From: Punctularia strigosozonata HHB-11173 SS5
Taxonomy: Eukaryota; Basidiomycota; Agaricomycetes; Corticiales; Punctulariaceae
Assembly: GCF_000264995.1 (NCBI RefSeq)
Contig: NW_006767433.1
Coordinates: 4,045,264 to 4,109,263, forward strand
Direction of reading: 5' to 3'
DNA length: 64,000 bases
Position numbers and translations under genes: made by a program. The notes below the pieces were generated by a model. That model had not been told where the DNA came from. It saw only the letters and a program-made list of their open reading frames with translations, and searched no databases. Numbering within the stretch: position 1 is the stretch's first letter; the number at the start of each line of letters is the position of its first letter. Shown here one piece after another: positions 15,568-19,904 of the stretch.

Positions 15568-17133
15568 ATGATGCTGCTCGTCTCGTCTGCTCTGCTTGGC
15601 TTCGCGTCTAGCGCCGTAGCCGCGAGGACCATGACAGTTACAAACGTACGTTCGAGCTAGTGATTCCAACCGTGTGCGAATTCGATGGACCTCATTAATA
15701 TTTTCCTACAGAAATGCTCGTTCACGGTGAGACCGTCCGTCATCGCTTGCATTGGCTGCATTCCGAGTTGTGCGCGGTTTTTTTGGCTTGCTTCTTCATA
15801 GATCTGGTGAGTAACGTAGTCACAACTGAGTTCTCGCGAACGCTGACCTCCATATAAGGCCTGCTATGTTCACCGATATGAGCATTGCCGGAAATACAGC
15901 GCCCGATTATCCGACGGGCTGGGAAGCTCCGAGCGGCAACAGCGTAAGCCACCGTCAAAACCCGTAATAGTTTGTTAATGGGTTTTATCAGGTTACCTTC
16001 GATTTGCCTGACAATTGGCAAGCCGGACGTATTTGGGTGCATACACTCTCGTCAATAATTATTTATAATACTGATCGCTATATGTGCAGGGTCGCCGGGA
16101 CTGCGATTTCAGCACGGACCCCGGACCAAACTCTTGCTTGACTGGCGGCTGCAACGGTGGCCTCGAATGCGCTACCACTGGAGGCACTGTATGGCCTGTC
16201 CCCGTCTCCAAGATCGACATAACCCTCTGACTTCTCTATCACGGACAGGGCGTTCCTCCGGCGACAGTTGCCGAGTTCACCTTCGACGGTACTAACGATA
16301 ACTACGACGTTTCGCTCGTCGACGGGTATGTCAGGTTTTCGGTTATTTTCCCTGAGGTATAATCGCTGATGTCACCCCATCATTATTTCAGATGTAAGTG
16401 CATATTGACATTATTCGATATGTTTGCAGTAAATCAATCTTGTCACATTTCACGTTTGCAGACAATCTCCCCATGCGCGTTGACAACACCGTCGGTTGTG
16501 GTGTTCCCAGTTGTCCGGTGGACCTCGCCCCAAACTGTGCGTGACGATGTGTGCATGACACCGCCTGGAAATCCTGACACGAATCACCACACGACAGGTC
16601 CCTCCGCGATTGCAGGACCGTTCGACTCTACTGGAGCAGCGGTGGGCTGTAAATCTGCCTGCTTTGCCAACCTCGATGGGGACCAAGGTAAGCGATTTTC
16701 CGCAGTGGTCACCCGTCGCAAGATATCTTCTGTAACATGGCCACCGTGCACTTGCAGCAAACAGCCCGAACTGCTGCAGCGGGCAGTACGGCACGGCCGC
16801 GACCTGCCCGTCCAGCAGTGTTCAATGTGAGTAGCCCAAATGCCGCATATAGACCACTATATTGAACGCAACTTGGACAGACTACGATTATTTCAGTAAG
16901 CATCCTTTCGCTTATCGGGTTATTGTCGGGTACTCAGCGCCGTTGTGCCGTGTTCTTCAGAGAGCAACTGCCCCGACTCCTATGCGTGAGTAGCGCCCAC
17001 GCATGGTCGACGATAAAGGATGCTTATCTCGACCCTTCTCTCCAGATATGCATACGACGAAAGCAGCGGCACTGCCCTCTGGAAGTGCGATGGAAGTCTC
17101 GAGGCTTCGTACACTATCACCTTCTGCCCATGA
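15568..17133 (+). CDS. Thaumatin-like protein, copy 1 (GH152 family)
   Basis: Fourteen exons join in one frame to 255 aa: 15568-15645, 15712-15726, 15802-15806, 15859-15943, 15992-16036, 16090-16188, 16249-16325, 16392-16393, 16462-16536, 16598-16687, 16758-16826, 16881-16895, 16961-16985, 17046-17133. A signal peptide (MMLLVSSALLGFASSAVA) precedes a mature chain with the 16 cysteines of classical thaumatins. Family landmarks are CSFTIWPAMFTD, the GRRDCDFS segment, AEFTFDGTNDNYDVSLVDGY (acidic cleft), CPSAIAGPFDSTG, NCCSGQYGTAATCP and YAYDESSGTALWKC. Such proteins are secreted; some fungal members cleave beta-1,3-glucan and act in cell-wall remodelling or fruit-body senescence. Exons of 15, 5, 2 and 15 nt are present. 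Tandem with the copy at 18493. Confidence 0.9.
15802..15806 (+). other. 5-nt microexon (ATCTG) of thaumatin-like gene 1
   Basis: The five bases supply Ile and two bases of Trp in the conserved FTIWPAM motif. They are bounded by a TAG acceptor (15799-15801) and a GTGAGT donor (15807). Without them the frame is lost. The same microexon exists in the tandem copy. Confidence 0.85.
16392..16393 (+). other. 2-nt microexon (AT) of thaumatin-like gene 1
   Basis: A TTTCAG acceptor, the two bases AT and a GTAAGT donor are adjacent. Splicing GG+AT+AC gives Gly-Tyr in the conserved VDGYNLP motif. Skipping the two bases puts a stop a few codons downstream. Confidence 0.8.
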
Positions 17134-18492: not shown

Positions 18493-19904
18493 ATGAAGAG
18501 CACATCCGCCGCCGTCCTTCTCTCCGCCGCTTCTGGCGCGTTCGCCAGGACTATGACCGTGTACAACGGCTGCCCGTTCACGGTACGTGCACCAGATATC
18601 TTGTCAAGGACATCCTATTGATTGTGTTTCACCGTCACATAGATCTGGTGAATTTTGGATGTACCGTTCATCTGAGAGTTGTATTGACGATTCGCCGTCA
18701 AGGCCCGCGATGTTCACGGACATGAACGTCCCTAACAATGCGGCGCCCAACTACCCTACCGGAGTACGTTCATCACCAAAACTTACCCACACTCTTATCT
18801 CATCCTAGCCATTGTCTCCAGTGGGTCGCCGACGCCTACACCCATGTCACCTTCACCGTGCCGGACAACTGGCAGGCTGGTCGCATTTGGGTACGTTGCG
18901 GATCGTTGCCTGGAGAAAGTGTTTGACTCGTCGCTAGGGTCGCCGTGACTGCGACTTTAGCACCAACCCCGGTCCCAACTCCTGCCTTGACGGAGGCTGC
19001 AATGGCGGTCTGGAGTGCGCCACGAGCGGAGGCACCGGTGTCCCACCTGCAACTGTAGCTGAGTTCACCTTCGATGGCACCAACGACAATTACGACGTGT
19101 CTCTCGTGGACGGGTGCGTTTCTCTCATGCATGCGAACATTGCCCTAAGCTAATCATTGGTTCACAGATGTGAGTCTGGTGATAAGATCCTGCTTCCGCC
19201 GATATTGACCATTTTGCCTCAGATAACCTGCCACTGCGCATCGACAACACAGTGGGATGCCCCGTCGCCGACTGCCCGGTTGATCTCGGCCCGAACTGTG
19301 AGTTTCAACTAGGCCGTCACCGTATACTACTTTCTTACATCATGGTTCAGGCCCTGCCCCGCTCCAGGGTCCGTTTGACTCTACTGGCTTCCCCGTTGGA
19401 TGCAAGTCCGCTTGCTTCGCCAACCTCGACGGCAACCAAGGTGCGCCGAACTTCTTATAACAACGCCCAGCCTCATCTCACGCTTTCACCCTTCTGCCCA
19501 CATAGCCAACAGCCCCAACTGCTGCAGCGGACAATACAGCACGGCTGCGACGTGCCCCTCGAGTGGTGTTGCCTGTAAGTACCGCACGCGTGTTCGTAGC
19601 GGACAAACACTAAATTATATGCACTTAGACTACTCCTATTTCAGTGGGTATCATCGTCTGCGGTTATCTACTTTTGCTGACCAATACCTGCGCCCTTTCC
19701 TACAAATCATACAAACTGCCATCAGAGAGCAACTGCCCCAACTCGTATGCGTAAGTGGACCCGCTTCGCAGGATTCTGCCTCGGATTTAATGACGCGATT
19801 CTCTGGATTCTAGGTACGCCTACGACGAGAGCAGCGGAACTGCCCTTTGGTCGTGCCCTGCTAGCAAAGCGGCCGACTACACCGTCACCTTCTGCCCTCC
19901 TTAA
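18493..19904 (+). CDS. Thaumatin-like protein, copy 2 (GH152 family)
   Basis: Twelve exons join in frame to 255 aa: 18493-18582, 18643-18647, 18703-18763, 18822-18890, 18938-19113, 19168-19169, 19223-19297, 19351-19440, 19506-19574, 19629-19643, 19726-19750, 19814-19904. It has a signal peptide (MKSTSAAVLLSAASGAFA), 16 cysteines, and the same landmarks as copy 1 (CPFTIWPAMFTD, GRRDCDFS, AEFTFDGTNDNYDVSLVDGY, CCSGQYSTAATCP, AYDESSGTALWSC). Predicted as a secreted beta-1,3-glucanase-like protein. The 5-nt and 2-nt exons of copy 1 are conserved. Compared with copy 1 it lacks three introns and has one extra (18764-18821), so the two genes have diverged in intron content as well as sequence. Confidence 0.9.
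18643..18647 (+). other. 5-nt microexon (ATCTG) of thaumatin-like gene 2
   Basis: Identical to the microexon of copy 1: it sits between an ATAG acceptor and a GTGAAT donor and completes the FTIWPAM motif. Confidence 0.85.
19168..19169 (+). other. 2-nt microexon (AT) of thaumatin-like gene 2
   Basis: CACAG, AT and GTGAGT are adjacent. GG+AT+AT restores Gly-Tyr before AAC CTG; direct joining of the flanking exons gives an immediate TAA. Confidence 0.8.

Follow-up and report, generated by a model that had tools for sequence, protein, structure and literature searches.

A predicted two-nucleotide exon in two tandem thaumatin-like protein genes of Punctularia strigosozonata

Two neighbouring thaumatin-like protein (TLP) genes of the basidiomycete Punctularia strigosozonata HHB-11173 SS5 are predicted, with high confidence, to contain a real and constitutive exon of only two nucleotides, AT, at 16392-16393 in copy 1 and at 19168-19169 in copy 2. 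Within the motif DGYNLP the exon would complete the Gly135 codon with its A and open the Tyr136 codon with its T. It sits between two introns of ordinary size (66 and 68 nt in copy 1, 54 and 53 nt in copy 2). Each of these has a donor and an acceptor to itself, and the two would be removed successively by intron definition. The case is built on the sequence of the joint, on the need for the two bases to keep the frame, on their conservation in two paralogues saturated at synonymous sites and on the constraint upon the protein; from these we infer the splicing itself and its sequential order.

The window, that is the whole 64,000-nucleotide stretch analysed here, lies on contig C1 of a 33.57-Mb fungal genome. 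Positions are counted from its first base unless another locus is named.

Table 1. Positions in the window of the two genes and of the features at the joint, from our own exon/intron models
Feature	Position	Strand	Remarks
Copy 1, thaumatin-like protein gene	15568..17133	+	14 exons, 255 aa
Copy 1, exon 7	16249..16325	+	ends ...SLVDG(GG), phase 2
Copy 1, upstream intron	16326..16391	+	66 nt, GTATGT...TTTCAG; branch-like CTGAT, A 22 nt before the 3′ splice site
Copy 1, predicted two-nucleotide exon AT	16392..16393	+	third base of Gly135 and first base of Tyr136
Copy 1, downstream intron	16394..16461	+	68 nt, GTAAGT...TTTGCAG; GTCAC at 16 nt
Copy 1, exon 9	16462..16536	+	starts AC-AAT-CTC (Tyr-Asn-Leu)
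Copy 1, competing acceptor GTTTGCAG	16422..16429	+	with donor 16326 keeps the frame without AT
Copy 2, thaumatin-like gene	18493..19904	+	12 exons, 255 aa
Copy 2, upstream intron	19114..19167	+	54 nt, GTGCGT...TTCACAG; branch-like CTAAT at 14 nt
Copy 2, predicted two-nucleotide exon AT	19168..19169	+	place homologous to AT of copy 1
Copy 2, downstream intron	19170..19222	+	53 nt, GTGAGT...CCTCAG; branch-like TTGAC at 14 nt

Gene models and reading frame

Copies 1 and 2 are adjacent in tandem on the same strand. Both proteins belong to the thaumatin family PF00314 and match its profile over the full length (positions 1-209 of 209) with 220.5 and 217.3 bits respectively, above the curated cut-off of 27.4. 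The copy 2 protein is identical to that of copy 1 at 198 of 254 aligned residues.

At the copy 1 joint the order is GG (16324-16325), a GT-AG intron of 66 nt, the bases AT, a second GT-AG intron of 68 nt and, from 16462, ACAATCTC. A preliminary description of this DNA had listed GG, GTATGT, AT, GTAAGT and the second intron, and the bases were found exactly where it had placed them. With AT included, the joint reads GGA TAC AAT CTC, encoding Gly-Tyr-Asn-Leu within DGYNLPM in a protein of 255 residues. When AT is skipped the frame runs DGQSPHAR to a stop at residue 142, in agreement with the early stop foreseen in that description. Retention of the upstream intron, or of both introns, gives a stop at 147; if only the downstream intron is retained, the frame is shifted and stays free of stops over the modelled length. 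The homologous place in copy 2, which the preliminary description did not mention, has the same arrangement of GG, intron, AT, intron and ATAACCTG, again giving Gly-Tyr-Asn-Leu, and omission of AT here brings a stop right behind Gly (residue 135). In both genes the two bases are bounded by AG and GT, as TTTCAG-AT-GTAAGT (16386-16399) in copy 1 and as TCACAG-AT-GTGAGT in copy 2.

Splice paths through 16249-16536 of copy 1 were enumerated with GT or GC donors and AG acceptors; a path could contain one intron or two, none shorter than 20 nt, and any internal exon was limited to 60 nt. There are 1422 such paths; 190 are open and keep the frame, and a single one of the 1422, the AT path, yields SLVDGYNLPMRV. 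The corresponding region of copy 2 (19037-19297) has 873 GT/GC-AG paths, four of which yield the protein: the AT path itself, plus three paths with GCGTTT at 19116 as a GC donor. Once AT donors and AC acceptors are allowed as well, 36456 paths with 53 hits are obtained for copy 1 and 25958 with 24 hits for copy 2; besides the AT-exon path all have non-canonical ends, and these extra paths were judged implausible. The claim that only AT gives Gly-Tyr-Asn-Leu thus holds among the GT/GC-AG paths of copy 1, but an open frame is also reached without AT, through donor 16326 and acceptor 16429.

Splice sites and intron lengths

A position weight model of splice sites was derived from 33 of the 37 introns of three genes (copies 1 and 2 and a paralogue, copy 3), leaving out the four that flank AT; these introns come from the homology-guided models that we ourselves had built for the three genes, which counts as a point against the AT exon. 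All 33 start with GT and are 47-82 nt long, and their lowest donor score is 2.1. On this scale the donor hexamers flanking the AT exon outscore 15, 31, 17 and 21 of the 33 other introns, and the flanking acceptors outscore 22, 27, 32 and 29 of them. Branch-like YTRAY motifs precede three of the four flanking acceptors, at 22, 14 and 14 nt. In the downstream intron of copy 1 no YTRAY was found at a distance of 8-45 nt from the acceptor, which is a further point against the AT exon; 13 of the 33 also lack one. Taken as a single intron the whole joint would measure 136 nt in copy 1 or 109 nt in copy 2, vs 47-82 nt for the others.

The same protein would arise in both copies if one non-canonical intron began 2 nt further on (AT-AG, 16328-16461, in copy 1; GC-AG, 19116-19222, in copy 2), giving DGYNLP with no two-nucleotide exon. 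The Gly and Tyr codons would then read GGG TAC in copy 1 and GGG TAT in copy 2, in place of GGA TAC and GGA TAT on the AT path. The start of such an intron coincides with the GT-AG donor of copy 3 (GGGT/GTAAGC), and the GC-AG intron of copy 2, which delivers the protein without AT, does count against our reading. The two donors, ATGTCA and GCGTTT, would however be non-canonical in two different ways, whereas 33 of 33 training introns start with GT, and the introns would be 134 and 107 nt long, vs 47-82 nt. Moreover, the hexamers immediately upstream, GTATGT at 16326 and GTGCGT at 19114, match GTRNGT, and the conserved YAG-AT-GTRAGT would serve no purpose. We therefore regard a non-canonical single intron as very unlikely.

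Protein constraint and the public protein

The homologue set comprises 229 distinct proteins, merged from the best 120 each of 1203, 2624 and 644 hits, and includes the public protein P0121. The ten columns at VSLVDGYNLP are ungapped in all 229 of these listed homologues; the Tyr position is occupied by Tyr in 192, Phe in 25, Ala in 9 and Ser in 3. Omission of AT breaks the frame, with the stops at 142 and 135, at this conserved motif. A number of the homologues come from contigs of about 1 kb in jgi or lgn sources, and we take these to be transcripts; among the matches listed, the identity of jgi/lgn homologues over the compared part does not exceed 82%, and none is near enough for this species.

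P0121 is an NCBI protein of P. strigosozonata HHB-11173 SS5 and equals copy 1 except for a shorter N-terminus and two places. At the joint it reads SLVDGYNLPMRV. Three small exons of our copy 1 model are evidently missing from it, namely exon 3 (5 nt), exon 12 (15 nt) and exon 13 (25 nt). To all appearance P0121 is a gene model rather than a cDNA, and it could have been fitted to homologues.

We note that the 5-nt exon, ATCTG (Ile-Trp), is found in both copies (15802-15806 and 18643-18647), flanked by two short introns; at this place P0121 reads TVRPPA, vs TIWPA in our model. The 15-nt and 25-nt exons, both missing from P0121, are also common to copy 1 (16881-16895 and 16961-16985) and copy 2 (19629-19643 and 19726-19750). 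A query with residues 77-136 of copy 2 gave no public record of the copy 2 protein in the best 120 of 644 matches, the top match being P0121 (95%). Copy 2 (18493-19904) may be unannotated or badly modelled in public data.

The constraint on the motif bears directly on the path through 16429. Copy 1 might be spliced by one 104-nt intron (16326-16429, acceptor GTTTGCAG) with AT unused, either as the main form or as a minor isoform. The frame then stays open to the natural stop and the joint reads DG-KSILSHFTFAD-NLP, with 11 residues replacing Tyr136. The acceptor scores 6.4, the same as that at 16391, and a branch-like TTGAC stands 21 nt upstream of it; these are points against the AT exon. Nevertheless, the product would carry an insertion in a motif for which all 229 listed homologues are free of gaps, its Pfam Thaumatin score is 201.9 bits vs 220.5, and a 104-nt intron exceeds all 33 others (47-82 nt). 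The preliminary description had itself named a second acceptor of this kind, keeping the frame with no AT, among the results that would refute its reading; because of the insertion and the intron length we did not count this path as a refutation. An in-frame insertion path at the same place in copy 2 (19149-19222) is open, but its donor scores -2.7 vs the minimum of 2.1 among the 33; there are 11 open single-intron paths in copy 2, and the donors of the best eight all score about 0 or less. P0121 reads DGYNLP, though this may reflect fitting to homologues. Splicing to 16429 in place of the AT exon thus appears improbable, and its product is possible as a minor isoform of copy 1.

Conservation and chance

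Of 105 four-fold sites, 76 are different in copies 1 and 2, and all ten homologous intron pairs align no better than shuffled sequence (p 0.14-0.81). Despite that divergence YAG-AT-GTRAGT is retained in both. Since the same AT is found in copy 2 while four-fold sites and introns have diverged, the AT exon and its signals look to have been kept by selection. The two AT exons are paralogous and hence do not represent independent origins.

In the 64-kb window the pattern YAG-NT-GTRAGT occurs twice on the + strand, at the paralogous sites 16389 and 19165, and not at all on the - strand. Each inter-exon segment was also subjected to 20,000 dinucleotide-preserving shuffles, with its first 6 and last 3 bases held. 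AG-NT-GT with at least about 45 nt on either side appeared in 6.7% of shuffles for copy 1 and 1.9% for copy 2, or 0.095% jointly; YAG-NT-GTRAG appeared in 0.04% and 0.01%, and in 0 of 20,000 jointly. The AT motif at the joint is more than chance. It is extremely unlikely that the genes are pseudogenes, or frameshifted at the joint, with AT as a fortuitous match: both copies hold 255-aa frames and full PF00314 matches, 198 of 254 residues are identical despite saturated synonymous divergence, and even the loosest motif has the joint chance of 0.095% given above.

Related genes and origin

Among related genes, copies 1 and 2 have the AT exon and copy 3 does not. Copy 3 is a third intron-rich paralogue, on contig C4 (locus L007; 257 aa in our own model), and has a single intron, GGG T/gtaagc...ag/AT AAC, where the downstream intron lies in the other two copies. 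That a paralogue manages without a two-nucleotide exon is a point against our reading. The Tyr codon is interrupted behind its T in all three genes (GGG T/AT in copy 3, GGA T/AC and GGA T/AT in copies 1 and 2), each of which has GACGGGT at the joint. The GTs overlap here; the donor of copy 3 is the second (GG-GT-GTAAGC) and that of copies 1 and 2 the first (GTATGT, GTGCGT). In a distant TLP gene on contig C5 (L006) the motif is, by eye, uninterrupted by an intron. DNA of relatives was also sought by pattern: 38 matches in genome contigs and 49 in viral contigs included no relatives, so the exon is not traceable outside this genome.

Two further features of copy 3 were observed. Our model of it contains small exons of 8, 11 and 13 nt (1062-1069, 2055-2065 and 2127-2139 of L007). 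Two of its introns lie 1 nt off those of copies 1 and 2 (Trp T/GG vs TG/G; Tyr /TAT vs T/AC), as if they had slid.

The state in copies 1 and 2 would be derivable from that of copy 3. The donor would have moved 2 nt up to the overlapping GG/GT, a frame-neutral change, and a second intron would have arisen together with AT, for example by tandem duplication of the unit 'intron + AT'; combined with the donor move, such a duplication would produce the arrangement of copy 2 and leave the frame unchanged. Alternatively, there could equally have been intron loss in copy 3. To look for traces of a duplication, the introns on both sides of AT were aligned to one another and to the intron of copy 3. 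These eight comparisons, between introns that are saturated, gave p values from 0.023 (copy 3 vs the downstream intron of copy 1) to 0.993 (copy 3 vs the upstream intron of copy 1), none of them firm evidence given the number of tests. The boldest scenario would be a one-step, frame-neutral tandem duplication with a 2-nt donor slip, maintained by selection across a very old gene duplication, perhaps widespread in the TLPs of mushroom-forming fungi and representing the smallest known nuclear exon of the Basidiomycota; we put it forward as a speculative proposal that is rather unlikely to hold in full. If true, such an origin would be a standing example of intron duplication making an ultra-small exon.

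Splicing of the predicted exon

The acceptor and the donor on either side of AT are 2 nt apart and probably could not be occupied simultaneously, so two successive reactions would be needed, in either order. The preliminary description saw a puzzle here, in that so small an exon is not recognisable by exon definition. According to the available text of PMC2397502, intron definition is believed to be the main mode of splicing in fungi, and for this reason a two-nucleotide exon poses no recognition paradox: as each intron is an ordinary unit, nothing need span the AT exon. Nor is the size, which had been called extreme in any eukaryote, a puzzle: exons this tiny are rare, but 1-nt exons have already been reported in plants and in another fungus (PMC4674806, PMC12940212, in the parts available). 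The central reading of the preliminary description, a two-nucleotide exon, has the best support of those considered, and its presence in copy 2 as well adds to this; the recognition puzzle falls away, and the uniqueness of the frame needs the qualification given above.

A stwintron was considered and rejected. No internal intron interrupts a donor, branch or acceptor; the donor and acceptor of each intron are complete, and the mRNA would retain AT. Stwintrons, as presented in the accessible portions of PMC7138796 and PMC6616335, resemble the present joint in that two short introns are removed successively by intron definition, and a donor-duplication scenario has been given for their origin. 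They differ from it in that neither intron here breaks a splice element of the other and two exonic bases are kept.

Comparison with known systems

The AT exon is best viewed as another case among the known ultra-small exons, with unusually clear evidence from paralogues. What follows on published cases refers to the parts of each paper that were available. Single-nucleotide exons are described in APC11 of Arabidopsis (PMC4674806), in plant APC11 and VPS55 (PMC8831610) and in CYP621A of Fusarium (PMC12940212); according to the last paper, a 2003 microexon survey found exons of 2-5 bp in Arabidopsis, Drosophila and human. The Fusarium case is similar in several respects: an ultra-small exon lies in the Gly codon of a conserved motif in a fungal nuclear gene, it is bounded by AG and GT, its omission breaks the frame and a relative without the intron lends support (PMC12940212). 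It differs in that the exon is 1 nt rather than 2 nt, belongs to an ascomycete and is backed by 20 orthologues (24 genes) and 18 SRA reads (PMC12940212), whereas here there are two paralogues known from genomic sequence alone. The plant APC11 and VPS55 exons are likewise essential for the frame and conserved in related genes, with other copies lacking them (PMC4674806, PMC8831610). Unlike the present exon, they were tested by constructs, RT-PCR and RNA-seq (PMC4674806, PMC8831610), and the plant introns are longer, with a 422-nt segment in Arabidopsis APC11 (PMC4674806).

The P450 genes of Phanerochaete chrysosporium, likewise from a basidiomycete, are also intron-rich, with short introns and very small exons (PMC1184071); the microexons there span 2-10 codons, the shortest stated being 6 bp (PMC1184071), and an 8-nt exon in CYP5141A1 is named in PMC12940212. 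The 1-nt exon of fungal mitochondrial rnl also lies as a minimal exon between two adjacent introns (PMC12308204), but that gene encodes a mitochondrial ribosomal RNA with no reading frame and its introns are group II rather than spliceosomal (PMC12308204). In Ganoderma lucidum, another basidiomycete, splicing likewise matters for the product of a thaumatin-like gene, through alternative splicing controlled by PRMT5; this case, unlike ours, concerns retention of intron 4, and the available part of the paper describes no microexon (PMC10715077). Our literature search, which covered titles and abstracts with most subscription papers outside it, returned no 2-nt exon in a fungus; two papers that it did return for a 2-nt or 2-bp exon, on a rare-disease database and on primate HLA-F, are unrelated to judge from title and abstract, and the available parts of PMC3048497, PMC11121469 and PMC12409088 contain nothing on a 2-nt exon.

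Significance

The genes carry a warning for annotation: automatic gene models of intron-rich mushrooms lose or distort small exons, P0121 being a case. If confirmed, AT would place a 2-nt exon in a nuclear gene of a basidiomycete. Within the literature searched (most subscription papers lying outside), it would then be the second fungal spliceosomal exon shorter than 3 nt, after the 1-nt exon of Fusarium. Confirmation would also mean that such an exon outlasts synonymous saturation between paralogues, and that the fungal spliceosome copes with exons having no space for exon-bound factors.
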